Source: Apostichopus japonicus
Taxonomy: Eukaryota; Echinodermata; Holothuroidea; Aspidochirotida; Stichopodidae
Direction of reading: 5' to 3'
Assembly (NCBI RefSeq): GCF_037975245.1
Contig: NC_092567.1
Span: 1,055,214-1,119,213, forward strand
Length of the DNA stretch: 64,000 bases
The position numbers and the translations under genes were made by a program. The notes beneath the pieces were generated by a model that saw only the letters and a program-made list of their open reading frames with translations, did not search any database and had not been told where the DNA came from. Positions 6,969 through 49,672 of this stretch are shown here, one piece after another (the stretch's first letter is position 1; every line of letters starts with the position of its first letter).

Positions 6969-7691
6969 TTAATTTTTAATTGCAAAGGAATTGTTTTGGT
7001 TTATCTGGGACGGCAAATCGTTTCTGATGTTTAAACCGAATGGTGCCGTGGTCTTTAGGTTTAGTTCCCAGAAATTTTCTTTTCCTTTCCTAGATTTATC
7101 TGTCCAAGAATCGTTCTGGTCAATGGCAATAACACGCAAATCCTCAATTGAATGATTTTGGAGATTGAAGTGATTTGCAACAGGTTGGTTGATCTTTTTG
7201 GTTTTGATCGCCGATCTATGTTGTGTCATTCTCATTCTAAGAGTGTTTTTTGACTCTCCAATGTATTGTAAGTTACAAATATTGCAGTAGATGAGGTAAA
7301 TGACAGTTTTGGATAGGCAGTTAATTTTGTGCAGAATTTGGAACGTGCGTTTGGTTTGGTTGCTCTGAAATGCCCCGGTCGAATCGACAAGTAAGCACGT
7401 TTTGCAATTTTGTGTACAAGGCGATGATCCTGTAGTTTCCGTTTTGCTTTCCCCTAATGGGGTGTCATCCCGAAAGGATGCCCGAACTAAAATATCCCGT
7501 AGGTTGCTGGGTCTTTTAAAAGCGATGACAGGTAATTCTGGGAAAACTGATTTCAGACGTTCGGTGCCTTGAAGTAGGTGAAAATTCTTCTGAATGATAT
7601 TAGCCAGTGGTGGGAGACCATAGCAACTTCCTGGTTGGATACCAACTCCGGCGAATTCCGTGACGATGTTCGTGTGGCATACATTTAACAT
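6969..7691 (-). pseudogene. Penelope-like element GIY-YIG endonuclease, C-terminal part
   Basis: This is the end of a Penelope-like ORF. In order it contains a linker typical of these elements (PELPVIAFKRPSNLRDILVR), a Cys-rich knuckle (CTQNCKTCLL), and the GIY-YIG core YLIYCNICNLQYIGES followed by LRMRMTQHRSAI (catalytic Arg region) and NHF. The stop codon is at 6969. The family couples a reverse transcriptase related to telomerase with this nuclease. About 240 residues remain of an ORF usually well over 600. The first residues (about 7640-7691) look unrelated and may be flanking sequence read through. Confidence 0.88.
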
Positions 7692-7699
7692 TGCTACCA

Positions 7700-8930
7700 G
7701 CGTGATGATTCAACCGGCGGCAGACGAAGCTAGCATATCGCCTGACCAAAAGGAAATCGGCATCTTCGGCCAGGAGCCCAAATACACTGACACAACAGCT
7801 ACCTAGGCTTCTGAACAGTCGTTTGATTTCCATGATATGTATATGTTATTAATTAACATCTGGTCCATGTATAAACTACAAAATACTTGAAACATCAACG
7901 AAAACTTGCGATTCGTAATGCATTACTGCACTGTTCATAACATGCATTGAAACATACACTATTAATGTCTTCAATTTTATCTTCCGTAGTTATTTGTTAG
8001 GAATCAAAGCACTAGAATATCCCTGTTTTATTGGCCAAACGAAACTGTTTTACTGTCTGGTCTGAACCATTGCCTGTTTTGTAATATATGCCTTTAACGT
8101 GTTTACCTTGCCTTTAAATTTGAATGCAACGTGATAACTTCTTCACCTTTTCTCCGGTGTTTCAAACTAGCGCCTTCCCAATGTACGCAAATATGCCTTT
8201 TAACCTATACGTGCTGGTAATTTGTACTCTTTTATCCCACGAAAACTCAATTATGCTCTCGAATTTTCTACTATTGATACTGATATTTAGACTTCATATT
8301 ATCGATGATTTATGTTAAAATTTCAAATATTCTTCTCAAATTTTCGATTTAACTTCGATATTTTCCAAGACTTTTTCATTATTTGGTCGAAAAATGTCGA
8401 CCATTTACTCAAAATTATTAAATTACAAAGTCTTTAATTTATGCTCGCATTTTTGTTTCATGTCAGAATTTTATGACAAAGTAGCCGTTATTTAGATAAT
8501 GTATCCCAAAACTCGTTGCCTGAACGTTTCGACTGGTTAATTTGAAAAAAAAATGGTGGCTCCTCATCTCCACATCATTACGACCATATTTCGTCGAATT
8601 TACGATTTTTTTATGTTGAAATTTCGACTTGTTCCTCAAATTTTAGACTTTTTTTATTAAAATTGCAAATTGTTATAATAATTATTTACAAATTTCCTGA
8701 AATATCAACATTTTTGTGAGTGTGCTCCACGAAATGTTTTCTAAAAAAAAAATTGAATTTAGAAAAGTCAACTCGAAATTTTACTTGAACTGTTAATCTT
8801 GACATTTTGTGGGTTATTAATGAAATGGTTCATTTATTAAGACTCTATACCCACATAAAGTTTTTAGTTCCAACGTTCATCAACATTTATCGAAACTTCA
8901 ACGGCACACGAATTATAAGAAAGGAATAAT
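7700..8930. other. AT-rich stretch, no gene seen
   Basis: The part 8330-8760 is rich in AAATTTCGA-like words. No protein or array was recognised. Confidence 0.4.
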
Positions 8931-14128: not shown

Positions 14129-15894
14129 TTAAGAACATTGATGTTTGATTGATTTTTGCAAACTTAATTTGCAATGTTAAAGCATTGGCAGCATAATTTT
14201 GTACATATGTTGCTATGTAATTTGACATGTACACATGTATGATAATATGTTTAATGAGCTACAGTAGTATGCTCAGACCTTTACTGTACAGTATTATTTG
14301 GACCAACTAGATACAAACTTAATTTACACTGTTACAGCAATGGCAGCATAATTTTGTACATGCATGTATGTTGAGCTATACATGTATGTATACACATGTA
14401 TACATTATAATATTTTGAATGAGCTACTGTAGTATGCTCAGACCTTACTGGCCTCTTCAGAGTAGCGTTTTTGTCCTTTTTCATTGCTGTAGCACAAGGT
14501 GTGGTTAATGTTGTAACATTTTCCTTAACTGTACAGTACTACCTGCATGAGTCATGCTAGACCGTAAAACCTTGGTTTCAACTTTGGATTTCATATATGA
14601 AGGTTACAGTACACTTAATTCATGATTAAATGTGTGGAAAGCAAAGCTAACTATTAATGTAGTTCATGAATGTGTTCGAGTGGAGGGAAATTATAATTAA
14701 TTGATAAAATATATTTTATATATTCAAGCAAACTGTTTAAAATTATAAGAAAATTTGCTGCATGAGTCACAGGAAATTAGGATTCACAAAATGAACAAAA
14801 TGTTGTTGATTGCTTTTTAGAAATGGATAAAATATTGTGTGACGAAAATGATCACACAAAATGATTCAAATGATGTGTTTAATAGTACTGTACTTGTTGC
14901 CAATTGATGTCAGTTTGTTTGTATGGATTGCTGGACCTGTTTATCCTCCTCTGTAGTCCGAGAGGTACATATCAGAGACTGCACAGTAACATATCAACAT
15001 AGAAACCTGTGCAATAAAGATGACATCGATTATATCCATGGAACAAACATGCAAATAACCTGTGTGATGTGGTAACAGTTCTTAGTCATTGTTATGCAGT
15101 ACTTTACATGGTACAGTTTGTTTTGTACACTGACTGTCCTCATGGACACACAGGTTTGTGCAAAGAACTGAGTCACAACTATATATCAATTCTGGAAAAC
15201 CAGGCAAGTATATTGCAAACTGCTATGCAAAAATGGTCAAATTGTTATGCAAATGGTTAAGATACAAAGCAGATTTTTTATTTTGTGAAGCATTAATTAA
15301 TTGCACATGAGACAAGCTTTCAAGCCTTCCCAAGATGCTACACAAAATTTAACAGTCAATTATATATTCCCTGAAAACTGATTGAAATTGTCTCAACACA
15401 CATGTATGGAACCGTTCTCAAAAAAAAAAAAAAAACCCAGATATAAAGCTAGATATTATCATAGGTGAACAAATATGAGGATATAATCGGAAGAATATCA
15501 CTGCACATCAATTACAGTACATCTGATTTGGCACTTTCTGAGCACGCTCCCCTGGGGCTACAGCTTTGAATGAGCCATTGAGATAATCTGCACACATATT
15601 CCATGTATTGTACAGGAATCCCATTATCATCAACAACAGTAAATCAGTTAAGAGGATTACTCTCAGGTTCTTTGTACCCTGGGGTCAGGCCAACTCTGAA
15701 TCTATAGACCTATTGTGTGTGTCTCAGTATAAGCTACCTGTATCTGTTGTGTACATAGATACATCTCTGAAGTAACTGTTAATGCTACAGTTTATAAGTT
15801 ACATTCCTACTACCATCAACTTCTGAGGCTTACTTTTAGGGCATCCTTTGTGAATCGGGTTCAAGAGGGTAGCATCTATAGTACAGTTTACAGG

Positions 15895-16081
15895 ATAGCT
15901 TCTCGGCCTTTTGGCTAAGATCATGTGTAGCATCTGTTCCCTTTTGAGGGGAATGGTGATGCACACCCGACGATCACACAGTCACAGTGCCGATGTGGGG
16001 ACTTGGATTGAGAGCGGATCAGTCGTTTGGTAGTGTGGTTATCATGCCCAGGTTCTTTCCTGGGCGACTTTCCTAAAAAAA
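15895..16081 (+). mobile_element. SINE with a U2 snRNA-derived 5' head
   Basis: The first 45 bases match U2 snRNA nucleotides 1-45 with three differences. They include CTTCTCGGCCTTTTGGCTAA and the branch-point recognition segment (GTAGCA for GTAGTA). After base 45 the sequence leaves U2. The 3' domain has a perfect 7-bp hairpin (16046-16052 with 16059-16065) extended by AGTC/GACT, and the element ends in eight A residues. It is flanked by the perfect 12-base duplication AGTTTACAGGAT (15885-15896 and 16082-16093). SINEs with snRNA-derived heads are known from other animals; membership in a named family cannot be checked here. It is not a functional U2 gene because the Sm site and 3' U2 stem-loops are absent. 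Confidence 0.85.
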
Positions 16082-17220
16082 AGTTTACAGGATGGTGTGT
16101 TCCTGTTGTAAACTTCAAAGTTAAATATAGTCTGGAATGGACTTGTCTTAACAGGAATGTGCCTGAAAAGTCCTAAATTCTGAAACCTCCAAGTTAACAA
16201 ATTTGACAGGTAAAGGACTCAGTGTGTGAACATATTTTGAGTCACTGTAGACTGGAAATAAAATGTTGTTAGACTATATTCAATGAGCATAACATTAATT
16301 GACTTAAATGTAGCACTTGTCATTTTCTGTTGGTTTTAACTTTTTACTCACATCTACTAAGTACAGTAGTTATATTGGTACTAATTTAGAATCCGTACCA
16401 TTTCTGTTAATCCGTACTATTTCTGTTAATCCATATATCCCGCTTACTATCTCTCTCCCACATTCATGTAATCACTCCCTATCTCCACCTCCCGTTCTTC
16501 TATCTCCTAATCCTAACCGGATTATACATACAGTTGTTATTCTGCCGATTAGAAGTAAGCCTTCCCATTCATATGGTATGGATTCTAAATCTATAGGCCG
16601 TTATATGTTATATATACATCTAGTTTTATGTAACGCTTTTCAATGTCACATATAACTTACTTCTTACGGTGCACTGTTTGTAGGTCTGAACATGCCATGT
16701 TTACAACATTGATTGTGCAAAATGTTGCTTGGATTCTTGAAAAGAATATTTACAAGACAGGCAACACAGACCATGTCAGTGGGTTCAGTTCCATGTACTG
16801 TATGTTGTGTTCACTTGTATTATACAGCGACCAGGCTGGTGAAATTTACTTGAACACGACAAAATACTCCTATGTTTATAATGTTAAGTGGCCTGACTGG
16901 TCTGTTTATCAGATCGAAGATCTCTAAATATTTTTTAGAACTTGCGTTTTGTTTCTTTGACCAGCTGATCGGCATAATTGAAAATTGGCTAATTATTAAT
17001 CGAAATTGAAACTTAGGCTAAAGAAATTGGCTTTTTTAGAACAGATTAATAATACATCGCAAGTTACAATAAGTGGCTTTGTTGTGCAACAAAAATAAGA
17101 AGTTCAATATTGGTTTGTTGTTATCGGCATTGAGGCTTAAGTTAACCAATGATACCAATATTCCGCTGATATTGCAAATATAGGTCAATAATGATATCAT
17201 TTATATACTATTGTCTTTTT

Positions 17221-17330
17221 AGCCTTTGAAGAAGATCCTGCTAGGATCGAAACGTCAGGCCAACTTACTTTTACACATTCTCCTACACAGGCTTTTAGTG
17301 GATTTATAAGCAGTTTGCTAACAGTTTTAA
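17221..17330 (+). mobile_element. Penelope-type terminal fragment (hammerhead-like)
   Basis: It contains TTGAAGA, a hairpin GATCC-TGCTA-GGATC, then GAAACGTC and AGGCCAACTTAC, followed by a shared segment ending GCAGTTTGCTAACAGTTTTA. The CUGANGA-stem-GAAA order resembles the hammerhead core reported for Penelope-like elements, with C to T at the first core position. The same segment recurs, partly inverted, at 18981-19107. Confidence 0.5.
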
Positions 17331-18499
17331 TTTTAATATTTTGATAAACTATTGTCAACGCAACACTATTTCAAAGTTTCAAGGTCAATGCCAGGTAGCC
17401 GTACTGGATATTAAACATTTTAAATTGAAAGTACAGTATTTATCTACAGTAGCTGATGTGTACATATGTATATGTACAGTACTAGGCAAAGGCTCTTCAT
17501 AATATTATACATGTAATGAATGAATGTCAATTAAATGCTACCAGCAAAAGTAACGTCAGAACATTTAGAATTGAAGGTACTGTATTTGATAAACAGACTT
17601 GAAAGTTCCATATATTTAGAACTTTATGCTCAGTAAACAAACTTGAATTACACACTGTGTAGAACTTTCAATTAGTGTCTAGGCTTTAAATGTCATAGAC
17701 TTACCTATCAGATTATTCCAATATAAACTGTACAGTGTGTTCATTCAGGAAATAATTGGTAGCCTTGCATGACTACACTTAATTTATAAAAGTGTAAACA
17801 ACACTCTTAATGAGGAGGCAATTCACATTTCAATGAAACAGCCTGGAATAATTCAGTACTGAAATTTTATGGATTTTGCGGTGCGATGCTCGATCCATTA
17901 TTCCCCGAAGTTGGATACTGTGTAAACTACTGCATAGATATTGAAAAAAAAATCATGAAACAGAAGAATCTCAAGTCAAACTGTTCATTGATTTGATCTG
18001 TTCATTTTATTCTGTGATTTGGATTCAATTGATGAAAACTACCCCTAACTTTTTTACCAGCAAAGCTCTACGTGAATGGTGTTATATTTTACGAAGTATT
18101 CTTATTCTTGTATCAGAGAGTTTAACTTTTCTAATTTCTACTGAACTTGATAATTTTTTATATCATTGCTTGTAATTTGTGGTACGACGCATTGAGATGT
18201 TTTTTTACATGTAACATTTGCGCCTTTAAGAATATTTTTACATTACATTACATTACGCCTTTGAGATGTGCAGAAAAAAACAATACTGCAGTATTAAATT
18301 TCTCAACAAAAGGTGAAGGAAGAACTGTATACAGTAGGTTCAGATATTTCCAACCAATCATGATATATTTATCAGATTAGGTCCCCTCTATAAAAAGAAC
18401 CAATATCTGCAGCAACATTTCTCTCAGAAAGAAGTCAATAAAGAGAAAGGCAAAATGGCCCATTTGCATAATCATTTGATTGTTTGAGGTTAAAGACCG

Positions 18500-20137
18500 T
18501 AGTGTTCGACCGATTGTATGACAATCGGTTTTACCGATTACCGATTATTTCCTGTGACAATCGGCCGATTGCCGATTACCGATTACCGATTATTTCAAAA
18601 TTTTCGCGGAACTGGCCTAATGTATGATTAGGTGTTATGCATGATTACCAATATCTAGGCCAATACAATCAAAGATGTAAATGAACGACTGAACTTTTCA
18701 CAGTTAAGATTAATGGAGCACGATTATAACGAGGAGTCGCAATATTGCAATCCCGCCACAACACAGTACTGTACAGACTACAGAAGGAGGAAAATAGTAG
18801 CAATTGGCTACGAAATGAAAAACAAAAAAGTTAGGGACAGGTTTTACAACTGCTATTAAAACAATTATCAGTGTTGCAACTCTAACGTAAATAAAGTAAA
18901 AAGTATATCGCACGTGTAAATAAAATATTCGTTATTTCGTTAGCTGATATCGAAATATATAATCTGATATGAAAAATAATGTGTAGGCCTAAGAGTAAGT
19001 TGGCCTGACGTTTCGATCCTATCAGGATCGAAATGTAACGCCACATTACTTATAACATATTCTTACACAGGCTCTTTAGTGGATAAGCAGTTTGCTAACA
19101 GTTTTATTTTATTATGAAAAATAAAACAATCTCGAACGTTTGCTTCAAGTTTTCAATGATTACCATCTGCACGGTAAAACTTCCGATCGATTGAACGTTG
19201 TTTCAAACGATCATACACAGTAAGTCAATGGAGAAGAGAAATTACACACTAAAGTGCCATTGACTTTGTCGCGGCGTGTCACTTGAAATCAGACTTGCTT
19301 TTAGTCGGTTGCGGTAAGGAGTTTAGTTACTGTTAGCAGGTATGGTACATGCGGCATAGGAAAAAAGTTCATCGGGTTTTTCGTAAAAATTTGCGTAAGA
19401 ATGTTTGCCTAATCACAAAATACTGTTATGCAGTAGAACTTCTGAGGAATGTCGCCAAACGTGTTTATGGATATTTAGGTGTATTAAGAGCCTTGATTTC
19501 ATCATTTTATGCCATTTGTAAAATCTTGGGCGCATTTTCAAACTTAACAGTTCTGAAGCTCAACTGTTCTTCAGCCAGACTAGCCTACGTAGTGTTCTCA
19601 CAATGAACAAAGCAGAATGTTATTGTTTTCACTTTCCAGTTTTCACCTATGGTGAAACGGCCAAAGTGGTTCAAAAGTATACTGATTTGGTGATTATATT
19701 TAGCATAGACAATTTTTCTTTCCCATCAATCGTTTAACATGATGACAGGTGGTTTTGCTAGATGCAACAAGCGAATTAAACAAATACGTCGTTCCCCTAA
19801 GCTTATCGGAGGTATACTGTGTGTTTTTAAGCAGACTACTGCTGCCAAAACTGGATAGTATATCGAACAGCATTTGTACCAACTCGCGCGAGGGACTTAC
19901 GATACCGTTACACGGTAGATAAGCCCACCTTCCCCGGCTATGGATAGCATTGAATCGAATGATAAAAATGTTTTCTCCCGTTGTGGTTGTGGTGTATCAA
20001 AAGCGCGGAAAATACAATCCTTTATGTGGAACGTAAAATCGGTTCCAACTAATCGGTAGCGTAATGGATTTTGCCGATGCCGATTATTTACCGATTGTCT
20101 GATAATCGGCCCGATGCCGATTGTCGGTCGAACACTA
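18500..20137. mobile_element. hAT-like MITE with CCGATTA subterminal repeats
   Basis: The ends TAGTGTTCGACCGA and TCGGTCGAACACTA are perfect inverted repeats. Next to each end are many AATCGG/CCGATT words in both orientations, like the subterminal repeats of hAT elements. No clean 8-bp duplication is visible (the flanks share only TTAAAG), so the class is tentative. A Penelope-type fragment sits inside (18981-19107). No transposase was seen. Confidence 0.7.
18981..19107. mobile_element. Inverted pair of Penelope-type terminal fragments
   Basis: The left half (GTGTAGGCCTAAGAGTAAGT, then TGGCCTGACGTTTCGATCC) is the reverse complement of the start of the 17221 fragment. The right half (AGGATCGAAATGTAACGCC to GCAGTTTGCTAACAGTTTTA) is a forward copy. 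They meet at the GATCC/GGATC hairpin. Head-to-head terminal pieces are typical of the complex ends of Penelope-like insertions. Confidence 0.5.
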
Positions 20138-22970: not shown

Positions 22971-23942
22971 GTTTTGTGCTGTCAATTTCCTTCCAGGTTT
23001 TCTTTTTGTTTATATTGATTTGTGTATAGCTCTTGTCCAATCATTATGGTTTTAAAAGGCTTCACGGTTAACCGGTTTCATCACCAAAACCGTTTTGTGC
23101 TGTCAATTTCCTTCCAGGTTTTCTTTTTGTTTATATTGATTTGTGTATAGCTCTTGTCCAATCATTATGGTTTTAAAAGGCTTCACGGTTAACCGGTCTC
23201 ATCACTAAAACCGTTTTGTGCTGTCAATTTCCTTCCAGGTTTTCTTTTGTTTAGATTGATTTGTGTATTGCTCTTGTCCAATCATTATGGTTTTAAAAGG
23301 CTTCACGGTTAACCGGTCTCATCACTAAAACCGTTTTGTGCTGTCAATTTCCTTCCAGGTTTTCTTTTGTTTATATTGATTTGTGTATAGCTCTTGTCCA
23401 ATCATTATGGTTTTAAAAGGCTTCACGGTTAACCGGTTTCATCACCAAAACCGTTTTGTGCTGTCAATTTCCTTCCAGGTTTTCTTTTGTTTATATATTG
23501 ATTTGTGTATTGCTCTTGTCCAATCATTATGGTTATAAAAGGCTTCACGGTTAACCGGTTTCATCACCAAAACCGTTTTGTGCTGTCAATTTCCTTCCAG
23601 GTTTTCTTTTTGTTTATTTTGATTTGTGTAATTGCTCTTGTCCAATCATTATGGTTTTAAAAGGCTTCACGGTTAACCGGTTTCATCACCAAAACCGTTT
23701 TGTGCTGTCAATTTCCTTCCAGGTTTTCTTTTTGTTTATTTTGATTTGTGTAATTGCTCTTGTCCAATCATTATGGTTTTAAAAGGCTTCACGGTTAACC
23801 GGTTTCATCACCAAAACCGTTTTGTGCTCTCAATTTCCTTCCAAGTTTTCTTTTTGTTTATATTGATTTGTGTATCAATGCTCTTGTCCAATCATTATGG
23901 TTAAGGCTGTGCAGTGTTAACCGGTCTCATTACTAAAACCGA
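22971..23942. repeat. 121-bp satellite, eight copies
   Basis: Units start GTTTTGTGCTGTCAATTTCC at 22971, 23092, 23213, 23333, 23453, 23575, 23697 and 23819 (period 120-122). Each has CCAATCATTATGG and CACGGTTAACCGGTTTCATC. Copies are very similar apart from the degenerate last one, so the array is young or homogenised. Confidence 0.95.
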
Positions 23943-29120: not shown

Positions 29121-31478
29121 TGAAACAACAAGAGAACAAAGTGATGGAATTATTGTAGTGGACACTCAACAGGTTTAATTTAACCATGCTGAAAAGGAAC
29201 CACCTTAGTGTGATTTAAGTGTGTTTTTAGCAAGGCTAGCCTTGACACATTACAGTACATTGGCTATGAAAGTGTCTAGATGAAAATTTAAGTTCATGCA
29301 ATGTTTTGCAAAGAGTTTGTTCAAATGAGCTAGGATATTTCTTCAAATTGAGTTGAGGGATCCTGTCATTGGCTGAACGTACAAGAAATGCTGTTACCCC
29401 GATGCCCCCCCTCCCACCCTCCCTTCCCCTCCCCAACTTCTTACATCCTCATTCCAATATGTCACCCAACTGGATGTCTAAAGGTGTAGTACTTACATGT
29501 ACATACCGTATGTATCAATCATTTACAGTCTGTTTGCATTATTGTAAAGCACATTATGGTTAAACAATGTTCATCTTTGTTTTGTAAAATGTGTTATTGT
29601 TTCCTCAGCTATAAGTGGTTTTTTGTTTGTTCAAAATGACTGTAGAATGTCTGCATGTTAGTAAGTCCTTCAACCTTCAAGTCTCTGTAGCTTTAGGACT
29701 GATTGACTTCAAGACTACTTGACTGTTGCCATGGATATCAAACTACAGTACAACCAACCTATGTACTTCACCAATGTGAAAACCCTTAATGATGTATGCA
29801 TTACCGGTATTAAGTTATTTGCTTTCCTCCATATTTGTTTTTTATCATGCTTATTTTGTCAATCAATTATAATCTTTTCCCATAGTTATTAAAACTCTGT
29901 CCAGAAGTGAAGTTTGTCGACTTTCAAAATGGCTTCGGCTGCTTCCTGTATCATTCTGCACAATGTATATATATATTACACTCAGTGCAGTATACAGTAT
30001 AGTAGCCTAACATGTTAATATTTGGATAGCATACGTATACGTGTTATGTATGTCAGCCATCTTTCCCTATCGATACAGACAGTATATCGCCACAGTTTCG
30101 AGATCAGAGAGCTAACAGTCCTCTCTGAAAGGATTTTATTCCAGTTGATTAACAATTTTCATTTCACTTTCCTTTCATGCTGCTAATTTACAATGCTGTC
30201 TTCTTTGTAAAACAAAAAAGACTTCGGTAAGTCTAAGATTTTCTTTTCTTGTAATACTTTTTGTCTGTGCTTTTGTCTAGGAACATCTGTACATATAACA
30301 GATGTTTCAATGTTGATGGATGGGTCTGTACATATTAAATGCACCCACTATTTATAGGGCACTGGTTGCATTGATTCAGTACTGGTCTGGTCATCGTCCA
30401 GATCGTGGGCGTTCTCTGCACTTTTACCAACCACTTTCACCAGTGATGGTCCACATCCCGCATTGACTATTTTCTTTTCTGTCAAATAATATCATATCTA
30501 TATTTAACATATATCTAGAATCATGCACTAACTTTGGTCAGATGACCAAGAAACAATAATCTTGTCAGTGACACACGTTTCTCATTTAAAACTTTTAGAA
30601 AGATCACACAAAGCATGATCAATTGATAAGTTGCTATTCCATTCTCCCATTAATTTGCTTTGAAATATTTTTATTTAAAAGATGCTGGGTATATAAGTAG
30701 CAGGGGAAACTTTTATTGTATGATTGTCTTTCATAGCACAAAAGATCACATAGACACACTGTAGTGTATTTGTAGACACAGTGAACTTCAAAAGGGAAAC
30801 TTATATGTCAGCTTAGGATAGAAAGTCGCCTGCTAAGCAATTCTGCAATTCTTGCTTATCAGCAAAATGTGTATAGACAAAAGGCTGTATTTACTGAAAT
30901 ATGATTGGTCGAGTTTAAGATTTATATGTCTTTCTATGAAAACGAAAGTTTCATTCAATGTTGTACATGTCAGGATTTTGTTTTGTTTAGGGAAATTCAT
31001 TTAATATCTAGGTTATAGTTGAAACCATTCTTAAAATGTTTTAACTGAGAAATATTATAAGTGATGATGATTGCAAAACATTAGTGCATGAGAAACAAAT
31101 TTAGTAAAATTAAGCAGTTTGCTGTCCAAAAATCACTACTCTGCAACTTTGATATCATAGGTTGCCCGCTATTCATGAAAATCTAAAGAATATGAAATAC
31201 GAAGTTTCATTTTCTACAGTAGTATGACATGCTCACATGGAAATATTGATAATGAAAGCTTGACTGACTGCAGGATACTGCAAACCCCTTAATATTCTAC
31301 TTTTGACAATTTGCCTTTTAAGTGGTTGTTCCATTTGTGCTGTTTAAGCACTTAGTCAACTCATCAAGTTCCATTTGAAATAACCAAAAGATATGATAGT
31401 CTTTTGAAAATTAGATCTGGTTAGCTCACTTTTGCTTTGGCTTTAAGGAAAATGTGGTGTGGTTCATCCAAAATATAT

Positions 31479-33100
31479 AGGAGTGGCTAGCTGCTGTCCG
31501 ATTCTAGCAAATACTGTAGTAGATAGAGGAGTGGCTAGCAGCTGTCCGGTTCTAGCAAATAGTAGATAGAGGAGTGGCTCTAGAGCAGCTGCCCGGTTCT
31601 AGCAAATAGTAGATAGAGGAGTGGCTAGCAGCTCTCCGATTCTACCAAATAGTAGATAGAGGAGTGGCTAGCTGCTGTCTGGTTCTACCAAATAGTAGAC
31701 AGAGGAGTGGCTAGCAGCTGTCCGATTCTAGCAAATAGTAGATAGAGGAGTGGCTAGCAGCTGTCCGGTTCTAGCAAATAGTAGATAGAGGAGTGGCTCT
31801 AGAGCAGCTGCCCGGTTCTAGCAAATAGTAGATAGAGGAGTGGCTAGCAGCTGTCCGATTCTACCAAATAGTAGATAGAGGAGTGGCTAGCTGCTGTCTG
31901 GTTCTACCAAATAGTAGAGAGAGGAGTGGCTAGCAGCTGTCCAATTCTAGCAAATAGTAGATAGAGGAGTGGCTAGCAGCTCTCCGATTCTACCAAATAG
32001 TAGATAGAGGAGTGGCTAGCAGCTCTTTGGTTCTAGTGAATAGTAGAGGAGTGGCTAGCAGCTGTCCGGTTCTAGCAAATAGTAGATAGAGGAGTGGCTA
32101 GCAGCTGTCCGGTTCTAGCAAATAGTTAGAGGAGTGGCTCTAGAGCAGCTGTCCGGTTCTAGCAAATAGTAGATAGAGGAGTGGCTAGCAGCTGCCCGGT
32201 TCTACCAAATAGTAGATAGAGGAGTGGCTAGCTGCTGTCTGGTTCTACCAAATAGTAGACAGAGGAGTGGCTAGCAGCTGTCCAATTCTAGCAAATAGTA
32301 GATAGAGGAGTGGCTAGCAGCTCTTTGGTTCTAGCGAATAGTAGAGGAGTGGCTAGCAGCTGTCCGGTTCTAGCAAACAGTAGATAGAGGAGTGGCTAGC
32401 AGCTGTCCAATTCTAGCAAATAGTACAGTAGATAGAGGAGTGCCTAGCAGCTGTCCGGTTCTACCAAATAGTAGATAGAGGAGTGGCTAGCAGCTCTTTG
32501 GTTCTAGCGAATAGTAGAGGAGTGGCTAGCAGCTGTCCGGTTCTAGCAAATAGTATATAGAGGAGTGGCTAGCAGCTGTCCAATTCTAGCAAATAGTAGA
32601 TAGAGGAGTGGCTAGCAGCTGTCCGGTTCTACCAAATAGTAGATAGAGGAGTGGCTAGCAGCTGTCCAATTCTAGCAAATAGTAGATAGAGGAGTGGCTA
32701 GCAGCTGTCCAATTCTAGCAAATAGTAGATAGAGGAGTGGCTAGCAGCTCTCCGATTCTAGCAAATAGTAGATAGAGGAGTGGCTAGCAGCTCTCCGATT
32801 CTACCAAATAGTAGATAGAGGAGTGGCTAGCAGCTCTTTGGTTCTAGCGAATAGTAGAGGAGTGGCTAGCAGCTGTCCAGTTCTAGCAAATGGTAGATAG
32901 AGGAGTGGCTAGCAGCTGTCCAATTCTACCAAATAGTAGATAGAGGAGTGGCTAGCAGCTGTCCGGTTCTACCAAATAGTAGATAGAGGAGTGGCTAGCA
33001 GCTGTCCAATTCTAGCAAATAGTAGATAGAGGAGTGGCTAGCAGCTCTTTGGTTCTAGCGAATAGTACAGTAGAGGAGTGGCTAGCAGCTGTCCGGTTCT
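31479..33100. repeat. 43-bp minisatellite, about 38 copies
   Basis: The unit is GAGTGGCTAGCAGCTGTCCG plus GTTCTAGCAAATAGTAGATAGAG. Variant classes recur in blocks: GTCCGG/GTCCAA/CTCCGA/CTTTGG after CAGCT, GCAAA or ACCAAA, and a version with GCTCTAGAGCAG. The blocks themselves repeat, so higher-order duplication has occurred. Each unit has a CAGCTG or a related palindrome (GCTAGC). No coding potential is evident. Confidence 0.97.
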
Positions 33101-36100
33101 TGCACTCAGCACAGTTTGATATGAAATAATGATGAATGCATATTGCTATTCAGTTAAAAAATGTACAGAAGTTAACTCTTGAAAGTGAAATTAGTTAATA
33201 AGGCTGTTTAGCAAGGCTGTTGCTATAGAGCTTGTTACATCTATTCTGTGACTTTCTGTTGTCTTTTTCCATGTTCAAAATTCTATCTTAAAACAGGGAA
33301 AACCAAAGAACATATTTCTTAACATTAAGCCATGTATTGCTGTGGTCATGTAGTCTGTTATTAACTAAAATTCTCTCAACTAAAAATTGAACAACATATT
33401 CTACCTGTATACAACAGTATTAAACTTGCACAAATCAACTAACGTACATTCCTCTGTTGTTCTGAACTATATTGCATGAAGGAGGTGATGAATATTCATG
33501 ACTTACCGCATTCTTTACTGACACCACTTTACACTTTATTTCTGTATATTCTGATGCACCTTTTTGCATAATTAATGTTGAATATGGTTGAAAAAAAATG
33601 ATCATCATACTGACCAGATGTATTACTTGTCATGACCAATAGAACAAATATTCATGAGGTATGAATATACATGTATAATTGAGCTATGAATATCCATTTT
33701 ATTTTGTTATTCATCCTTTTGTCCCACTGATCACCCAATTATTTATGTTACCATGTCCTGATTGTCAAGATGGGCAAGCTATCAATTATTCCCCAACTGA
33801 TGTTAGGAAATGTTTAATTAGTCCTCTCTTCCTAATAAACATAAAAATAATACTGATAAAGCTAATAAAACCCTTCACTTTTGCAAAGCTTTAAATTTAA
33901 ACTGGTTTGCTGAAAACATAATTTACACTGAGACTGTGTAATTTATCTGCACTACTCGGCCAATTCAACCATGTCACAATATACAATCTAGATCACTGCT
34001 CCTAAAGACTTTGATGATTAGTAACTAATTAATCCAGTGTTTAATGATAAGTTTGTGATTCAATACAAAATGTTAATTTTTAGTTAGTTTTCCTTTGTTT
34101 TCTAACTTCCCAATTCATATTGTACCTTTGATATCATAAATTATCTTGTTGCAAGTTAGTTGGACTTGGCATCACAAGTTATGTTTTCATGTGCTTCTAG
34201 ATCCTATCTGGCGCTGTAGAACTTGTAAATGCTGATCATTTGAAGGCCAATATAGCTTTAAGGCTAAGCTGTCTCCTTCTTACTGTAGATATTACTTATT
34301 TACGACATTGAGCAAAACATTTCATGAGCTCTTAAGAATCTCAATGCGATTAGATGTATTGACATGTTTCACCTGCAAGATATAAGTACACCTACTGTAC
34401 ATGTAGCGTTACAAGCACAACCATGACGATATGTGAGAGCTGTTGTTATAGAGAGTAGTTCTATTAGCCTCTATGTCAAAATTCATTTTGTTGACCCAAG
34501 TCCATCCTTTAGATAAATTTATATCAATCATTTCAGTCTAAATCATATATTTTTTTACAAACTTTTTGAAAAATTTACAGAAAATAAAATCCACTGCATA
34601 TTACCTCAGACTCACTAATTGCTGAAATCCTCACATAAATTTGTGATGAAAGCAAAACACTGTCAGCAATTTTCTGAGACTTACATGTGAAGTTATTATT
34701 ACCAGAACCACTCCTTGGCCAGGTGAGTGAATTTTGAAAGGTTCTACGGTACTTTGTAAGCAGGGGGAGTGTAATTGTTGAAGTCAATATGCCTCCCTGG
34801 TTAATGTCCCATTATGCCTTGCACTACTGTAGGCAAAGAGCTCACTGATTGAGACCTCACTGACTCTATCATTGTAGGGCAATGCATATAACTGTACTGT
34901 CATATTCCCTATGAACCAAACATTGCTCAGATGGATATCACTCCCACAGGGCTAATAAATGGTGTCCAAGTCCAGTGCTACCCTAGCAATTAGTATGAAT
35001 GCAGAGAGATTACCATTCTATTGTGTGGTTTATATCGTTAAAATGTCAGTTAATGACAGTTATTTCTTTAGAATGTAAAGTACAAAGAGACCTTTCTACT
35101 GCAGTGTTCTACAAAGAGGTGTAAAGGGATTTACTAACACAATAAACAGGACTGTATAAATTCCTTAAACACAGCATTTAGCATAGGGTGAGAACTTTAC
35201 ATCATACTGGGTTAAGTATGATCTGGTAAATTATACCCCTTAATGTCAGTACCAACGTCCACCAAAATTTACAGTTAACAGCTAAAAGTTGAGCACTAGA
35301 AGCTCTCAAAATAACTTAAAAGCAGAGTCCCTTATTGTCAAAATTATTCCCAGCCATTGAGGAGGAGGAGCAGTAAAATACCGGTGTACTGGGTAATTAC
35401 TCTGGCAATGGCAGTAAAATGATTGTTAAAATGTTTTTATCTTTGGTGACCATTTTTGACTTTCTAGCATATATGTTAGGACAATATTAACGCCCGTAAA
35501 ATCTCTGTATAGCAGTAGTTACAAGCAGTCCTCTACTTTGATAGTGTAGTCTATAGTTTAGAATTTACAAACAGCCTAGATAGTTGACATATAATACCAA
35601 CAACTAGCTCCCTGCTGTAAAGCCATATGGCCCTTCAACCTCATTATGCCCTTGAACTACTTCCCTGGCTGTGGTTTGCCAAACCAAGTCAATGTTAACT
35701 TTATAAAATGCCTGGTACAGTAAATACCATGTTGTAGAAACTTCATTGGAAAATGCAACCTACAAGGTGAAGGTTGTATACTAAACCTTCATAAAATGTT
35801 GAATTAGTAGTGTACTACATGAGGATCTAATGCATTAGAGGAATGATATTGAATTGGCCAGACATAATGTACAAAACATGTAGTAAATGCTTATTCTTAA
35901 GAGACAAATGTCCTAAGCTGTTAGTTGAATAATCCCATCTAAGTGTTTGACCCTAACTCATTAAATTTGGAGATTTAAATATGTAACAATGTTACGGCTA
36001 AACCCCCTCCCTCTTTCTAGGAAATAGTTACAGCCAGGTTATATCTGTGATGTCATGATGACAAATATTCTTCAAACTGTACAAACAATATAGTGTTCTT

Positions 36101-49032: not shown

Positions 49033-49672
49033 CATCTTGGTGTGTGAAAAGTCCTCGTTATAGTACTCTTCTGCATCTTGGTGTGTGAAAAAGTCCTCCC
49101 TAGTACTCTCCTGCATCTCGATGTGTAAAAAAGTCCTCGCTAGTACTCTTCTGCATCTCGGTGTGTCAAAAAGTCCTCGCTAGTACTCTTCTGCATCTCG
49201 GTGTGAAAAAGTCCTCGCTAGTACTCTTCTGCATCTCGGTGTGTGAAAAAGTCCTCGCTAGTACTCTTCTGCATCTCGGTGTGTGAAAAAGTCCTCGTTA
49301 GAACTCTTCTGCATCTCGGTGTGTGAAGAAGTCCTCGCTAGTACTCTCCTGCATCTCGATGTGTGAAAAAGTCCTCGCTAGTACTCTTCTGCATCTCGGT
49401 GTGTCAAAAAGTCCTCGCTAGTACCCTTCTGCATCTCGGTGTGAAAAAGTCCTCGCTAGTACTCTTCTGCATCTCGGTGTGTGAAAAAGTCCTCGCTAGT
49501 ACTCTTCTGCATCTCGGTGTGTGAAAAAGTCCTCGCTAGTACTCTTCTGCATCTCGGTGTGTGAAGAAGTCCTCGCTAGTACTCTTCTGCATCTTGGTGT
49601 GTGAAAAAGTCCTCGCTAGTACTCTTCTGCATCTCGGTGTGTGAAGAAGTCCTCGCTAATTCTCTCCTGCAG
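49033..49672. repeat. 40-bp minisatellite, about 16 copies
   Basis: The unit is GTCCTCGCTAGTACTCTTCT plus GCATCTCGGTGTGTGAAAAA. Some copies lack TG in GTGTGTG or carry GAAG for AAAA. It includes repeated near-donor and CTCCTGCAG-like words but no coding evidence. Confidence 0.96.

Follow-up and report, generated by a model that had tools for sequence, protein, structure and literature searches.

The window, that is, the whole 64-kb stretch of Apostichopus japonicus DNA analysed in this work, holds at 15895-16081 a SINE-like copy with a head derived from U2 snRNA, enclosed by 12-bp duplications. It is composed of the following parts, given in window coordinates:

15885..15896, no strand: 5' target-site duplication AGTTTACAGGAT, the last two bases of which overlap U2 nucleotides 1-2
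15895..15939, + strand: head, U2 snRNA nucleotides 1-45, with 2 mismatches to the host U2
15940..16045, + strand: body without recognised origin, lacking 3- and 2-base pieces of the family consensus
16046..16065, + strand: 3' hairpin GCCCAGG-TTCTTT-CCTGGGC, common to the family consensus
16066..16083, + strand: tail GACTTTCCTAAAAAAAAG; copies sitting in U2 genes end in ..CTTAAAAAG, with TATCTG behind it
16082..16093, no strand: 3' target-site duplication AGTTTACAGGAT, a perfect 12-bp repeat of the 5' one

The Rfam U2 model, with its gathering score of 46, matched the window at 15895-15971 with 49.9 bits, and this match is solid over U2 nucleotides 1-45. Together with the constant non-U2 body of the family, this match upholds the proposal of a first-pass annotation of this DNA that U2 nucleotides 1-45 were placed on an unrelated body, and the perfect duplications and the 3' hairpin that it described are present as well. 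The three head mismatches it had counted come down to two of 45 positions, nucleotides 3 and 37, when the copy is compared with the host's own U2, as the T at nucleotide 30 is the base of that U2. The A-tail, on the other hand, was a misreading, since the family does not end in a plain A-tail but in a nearly fixed sequence, ..CTTAAAAAG(TA) or ..CCTTAAAAAAAAG.

The surroundings of the copy are rich in tandem arrays with units of up to 238 bp (e.g., 22971-23902, 31475-33104 and 49033-49671). A fragment of a GIY-YIG domain on the minus strand (6972-7706) and an inverted repeat of the GATCCT..GAAACGTC type (17234-19029) possibly belong, as we assume, to Penelope-like elements.

A dispersed family with a U2 head

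A search of the host genome (671,581,487 bases in 35 contigs) with the window copy as query gave 49 matches, with the best 40 of 2380 candidates scored. On contig 35 of this genome, COX1 gives a sensible reading under the echinoderm code, with AAA at positions of conserved Asn. The consensus was sampled from 39 stretches that hold the other 48 matches beside the window copy, and these 48 copies differ from it by 4.0% on average (range 1.1-10.3), while the window copy differs by 7.5% and additionally by indels, and is thus a diverged member. A 43-nt pattern spanning the junction between U2 and the body, with up to 3 mismatches allowed, was found at 979 places (498 and 481 on the two strands), compared with none for the reversed control. 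This is the genome search for a shared junction that the annotation had called for, and it shows that the suspected U2-headed, SINE-like family is real and that the copy is no one-off chimera. A pattern with a shorter junction was found at 148 further places genome-wide; among the 100 of them listed, the forms were ..GTTCTTTTCGGG, ..TTTTAGGG, ..CCCTTCGGG and, in a few cases, ..TTTTCAGG, the last of which may be a point change. The 42-mer of the tail occurs at 1058 places and the 39-mer of the U2 head at 1118, U2 genes counted in.

All five copies tested passed the Rfam U2 threshold, and such copies therefore probably inflate snRNA counts. The accessible part of PMC10344927 gives 996 spliceosomal snRNAs for an assembly of Apostichopus japonicus, a number which, by our linking of the two observations, is probably swollen by SINE copies of this kind. 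The same Rfam label might also suggest U2 retropseudogenes, generated from processed U2 or from one aberrant U2 transcript and forming no family of their own. Against this, about three quarters of the element is non-U2 sequence, the 979 places share the same non-U2 junction, and the copies fall into subgroups and show serial insertions, new copies often sitting directly 3' of the ends of older ones. We consider such an origin scarcely credible, and in its plain form, with U2 sequence and a tail alone, it is refuted by the constant shared body. Rfam run at a permissive threshold on four loci recognised U2 alone and left the body unmatched.

As expected for a SINE, the element is about 193 bp long, non-coding, dispersed and present in high copy number, and it bears the hallmarks of target-primed reverse transcription (TPRT), namely target-site duplications and 5' truncation. 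Flanking repeats reached a score of at least 9 in 37 of 79 single-element loci, compared with 0.3% of shuffled flank pairs, and were absent at this score from the remaining 42. Truncation took place at many points, with starts from nucleotide 1 to 148 in 107 copies, 72 of which start at nucleotides 1-6; the sampling was non-random, consisting of best matches (L009-L047), the first 30 perfect junctions, on C1-C4 (L078-L107), and perfect tails without a perfect junction nearby (L108-L127). Two copies, read by eye, show irregular 5' ends: in L105 an inverted U2 piece lies between the target-site duplication and the element, resembling twin priming, and in L017 an extra sense U2 piece (approximately nucleotides 3-23) lies between the duplication and the head, resembling a template jump.

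Dispersed copies show a preference for particular target sites. In 85 distinct flanks following the final G of the tail, the most frequent letters were T75 A74 T44 C40 T48, corresponding to the TATCT of the U2 target, with binomial p values of 5e-5, 1.6e-9 and 1e-6 for positions 3, 4 and 5, the first two letters being possibly derived from the element. The exact match to the site is nevertheless short, as TATCTG follows in 3 and TATC in 16 of the 85 flanks. This preference for TATCT could reflect either the specificity of the endonuclease or an RNA that pairs with the primer through its U2 readthrough.

Several local arrangements of the copies deserve a separate description. Copies with the short junction occur in inverted pairs 1.8-3.4 kb apart (C2:13099703/13102874, C3:5845494/5847483, C3:25407312/25410319, C7:5899539/5902100, C16:10514680/10517721, C16:23429862/23433238, C19:10651943/10653770 and C19:27865154/27867375), as would be seen if a larger mobile element had taken up the SINE within its terminal inverted repeats. 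On C5, a recent tandem array at 11042100-11066280 (L128-L136) is built of 2.7-4.1 kb units in which young SINE copies are nested with degenerate ones; in the unit read, CCCTAA repeats take up about 700 bp. Its 8 copies, 2.7-4.1 kb apart, were considered as a dispersed, promoter-bearing master copy, but the array proved to be a recent local duplication, and inspection by eye revealed no U2 promoter in it.

SINE copies and LINEs inside the U2 genes

The U2 genes of the host reside mainly in a tandem array of 645-bp units on C16, which accounts for 42 of 46 scored matches (from 40968 candidates), the other four being located on C15. The host U2 begins with ATCGCTTCTCGGCCTTTTGGCTAAGATCATGTGTAGTATCTGTTC, and the head of the SINE consensus is identical to its nucleotides 1-45 at 45 of 45 positions. 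This includes the T at nucleotide 30, where the Rfam U2 consensus has A, and the head therefore looks as if it was taken from the U2 of the lineage itself. One SINE copy (L050 2883-3068, at about 6.48 Mb of C15) lies roughly 1.2 kb from a dispersed C15 U2 gene and outside of it.

Uneven spacing of the C16 array suggested inserts of approximately 145-153 bp, and a stretch chosen for its odd spacing, not for a junction (L137, C16:31131400-31135450), turned out to hold three interrupted U2 genes of the structure U2(1-45 or 1-53)+body+tail+U2(37-193). In two of these units, U2 nucleotides 1-45 lead directly into CCCTCGGGAATGG or CCTTAGGGAATGG and then into the full body, while in the third the body is truncated and follows nucleotides 1-53. 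Each of the three has its tail AAAAAG joined to TATCTGTTCTTTTCAGC, which is U2 from nucleotide 37 onward, the exact point of the joint being ambiguous as A35-G36 match the tail too. A pattern combining the tail with U2 was found at 7 places, 6 of them in the C16 array and one on C20, and at none in the control; since it demands this junction, it detects insertions at this point of U2 and is blind to those elsewhere in the gene. Further cases are a fourth full-length chimeric unit with one base changed in the U2 head (L138), a truncated copy that follows a LINE within one U2 gene and has at its boundaries a perfect 17-bp repeat of U2 nucleotides 37-53 (L147), a gene with two copies, of which the inner is nested in the U2 head of the outer (L148), and, on C20, a diverged U2 gene with an insert that has a double head (L149).

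The different 5' ends of these units, namely U2(1-53) with a truncated body and a 17-bp repeat of nucleotides 37-53, U2(1-45) with CCCTCGGG or CCTTAGGG, and the copies in L147 and the nested pair, indicate that several insertions took place. The 17-bp repeat is present in both truncated copies at a clean site (L137 and L147), while three full-length array copies, and the outer copy of L148 apart from its nested insert, have a single seamless head. The region upstream of the chimeric units is preserved as well: the 300 bp in front of the four in L137 and L138 are identical to the intact unit at 299-300 positions, and the corresponding region of L148 at 267 of 268, so that identity over 268-300 bp across the array units amounts to 99.6-100%. 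The sequence upstream of the C20 gene is not alike the intact unit.

Tandem arrays are hard to assemble, and chimeric U2 units might be suspected to be assembly errors. We find this very improbable, as the junctions differ from unit to unit, the 17-bp repeats are precise, LINE-SINE as well as SINE-SINE nesting is seen, and the separate case on C20 has its own flanks.

In a quick FastTree phylogeny, read without regard to support values, all array copies cluster together among the young copies and do not lie at the base of the tree. A dispersed copy (L118) groups with them, being 1.1% different from two, which fits an array source for this copy, though not necessarily for the older subgroups. 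Given their position as one young group, the array copies could be recent visitors belonging to a SINE born elsewhere, and older sources in the array must be assumed to have been lost.

The same site in U2 is occupied by LINEs. One LINE in L138 has open reading frames of 475 and 1153 codons (stop to stop), with a zinc knuckle and, in ORF2, an APE endonuclease (PF03372), a reverse transcriptase (PF00078) and a zf-RVT domain, and the best PDB match of its ORF2 is L1 ORF2p (E=9e-74). With this ORF2 as query, 20 of the best 40 scored matches (4647 candidates) are in or beside the U2 array, chiefly from four families that are approximately 100, 54, 51 and 37% identical to it. Families A (L051, L138, L146), B (L151, L152) and C (L141) rejoin U2 at nucleotide 37, as the SINE does, and family D (L139, L140, L142, L161) at nucleotide 39, the letters between the two points being ambiguous; LINE starts follow U2 nucleotides 1-25 in L138 and L151 and nucleotides 1-30 in L051 and L152. 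The U2 array at C16:30.99-31.17 Mb houses no fewer than four L1-like LINE families whose ORF2 is open, each with several near-identical copies, and is an unusually crowded niche for site-specific LINEs. More distant relatives, about 50% identical (L153, L155, L158 and L159, on C15, C11, C9 and C13), are followed by what appear by eye to be tandem tRNA-like repeats, which suggests members of the same clade that target tRNA arrays.

SINEs often have a 3' end in common with their partner LINE, but beyond a few terminal bases the tail of this SINE was absent from 14 stretches downstream of LINE ORF2, a sample of the LINEs in the genome. The pairing of SINE and LINE consequently rests on their common site and not on a common tail. 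A partner sought through the tail itself also turned out to be a false lead, because 21 tail places without a perfect junction nearby, in 20 stretches (among 100 listed of the 1058), were all SINE copies, either full or 5'-truncated.

Transcription and origin of the head

An internal Pol III promoter is regarded as a requirement for SINEs, while U2 is an RNA made by Pol II, with nucleotide 1 of U2 as its start. A motif scan of the consensus, which cannot reveal an unusual promoter, found no internal Pol III promoter: the best full matches to the A-box and the B-box had 3 mismatches each, both the A-box-like match, at 18-29 in the head, and the B-box-like matches, e.g., at 162, being weak. Runs of T are present at 15, 150 and 180, with TTTT at 15-18 and 150-153. 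These weak matches, together with the many dispersed copies, might suggest that the SINE is of the ordinary Pol III kind and hides an internal promoter in its head or body, its copies in U2 genes being chance or site-preference insertions without a role. Such an explanation is improbable, as neither box is better than 3 mismatches, the TTTT runs would be expected to end transcripts early, and the heads start exactly where Pol II starts U2.

The first-pass annotation had offered an external promoter or template switching as the source of such an element. The former is favoured by our results, in a form that was not foreseen, with copies inside U2 genes directly behind an intact promoter region. 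The latter would mean that the head was gained once, when reverse transcription of the body RNA by a LINE jumped to U2 snRNA at nucleotide 45 and copied it to its 5' end, the SINE entering U2 genes later. Jumps onto U2-like RNA at the 5' end seem to occur, judging by the extra piece in L017 and the double head in L149, and the accessible part of PMC13174262 describes chimeras of snRNA and LINE in mammals. However, the 3' ends of the head in the junction variants, at nucleotides 45, 49, 50 and perhaps 52, all fall inside the duplicated 17-bp stretch 37-53, which would seldom result from jumps to random points of the 193-nt RNA. Moreover, a single jump leaves the promoter of the amplifying copies unexplained, although promoter-bearing chimeric units exist. 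We therefore regard template switching as an occasional accident at the 5' end, as in the double head of L017, and as unlikely to be the main origin of the head. Retention of the branch-point-recognition segment, which had been singled out as notable, needs no role in splicing, because the head ends within U2 nucleotides 37-53, which are duplicated when truncated copies insert into U2.

Instead, the sequence data suggest that this short non-autonomous retrotransposon probably uses the machinery of U2-targeting LINEs and is transcribed from the U2 promoter when it resides in a U2 gene, its head being readthrough of the target gene. RNA polymerase II would start at U2 nucleotide 1 of a chimeric gene and read through U2(1-45), the body, the tail and U2 from nucleotide 37 on. 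The LINE protein would nick the target between GTA and TCT, and priming may be assisted by the U2 readthrough at the 3' end of the RNA. In a U2 gene, the cDNA could then pair through its U2 head with the 5' part of U2 in the target, and full-length insertions would become seamless and be placed again behind the promoter. At chance sites resembling TATCT, the same RNA would produce a dispersed copy with a visible U2 head and a target-site duplication and without a promoter. The head would thus keep the element alive at its home gene, being neither a Pol III promoter nor mainly the scar of a template switch.

With somewhat less assurance, we lean towards the broader view of a SINE with a spliceosomal RNA gene as its home, obtaining a Pol II snRNA promoter by U2-targeted insertion, with the promoter-proximal piece of its target as the head and with U2-U2 pairing that would rebuild a promoter-driven copy in each round.

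Comparison with known systems

The SIDEs derived from R2 and R1 are non-autonomous elements of multicopy rRNA genes, co-transcribed with them, and are deletion derivatives of a LINE. They resemble the element proposed here in living within a multicopy RNA gene, but the body of the latter has no recognised LINE origin and the 5' end of the target travels with it as the head. A close likeness exists with the crocodilian SINEU families, reportedly described by Kojima in 2015 as having heads from U1 or U2 snRNA genes that were added repeatedly, with a LINE of the Tx1 clade as the likely helper and with insertions that are said to favour a Mariner element. The sea cucumber family shares with them the SINE-like structure and a head from an snRNA gene, in this case U2, and is set apart from SINEU, as reportedly described, by its insertions in U2 genes and TATCT-like sites, its echinoderm host and the chimeric U2 units. 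Elements with snRNA heads are also cited in the accessible parts of PMC7245038 and PMC8010984. In the open-access literature searched, a scope outside of which Kojima 2015 falls, SINE insertions into U2 genes were not described. SINEs with U2 heads are already known from crocodilians, and the echinoderm family with insertions in U2 genes is a new variant.

Among autonomous elements, the accessible part of PMC4640811 describes Utopia in Phytophthora, after which U2 restarts at nucleotide 39, and Keno, with the same 3' flank. These LINEs occupy the same part of U2 as those in the array. The array LINEs are Keno-like by domains and site, as they combine an APE-type endonuclease, which is also present in Keno, a U2-specific LINE of the Tx1 clade, with an L1-like reverse transcriptase (seen in L138) and resume U2 near nucleotide 39 (37 in families A-C, 39 in D). 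The SINE differs from both, as it is about 193 bp long and codes for nothing. U6/LINE-1 and other snRNA-LINE chimeras, in which an snRNA is joined to a retroelement in sense orientation, are individual cases in the accessible part of PMC13174262, in contrast to the amplifying family with a constant junction found here.

Transcription of a Pol II-type head needs an explanation in any SINE headed by U1 or U2, and chimeric U2-SINE genes with the U2 upstream region make this matter directly testable. Readthrough of the target gene would represent a general route to new SINE heads, beside jumping between RNAs. If this is true, SINE heads can be relics of the gene in which a site-specific element has its home, and the repeated U1 and U2 heads of the crocodilian SINEU would also be accounted for.
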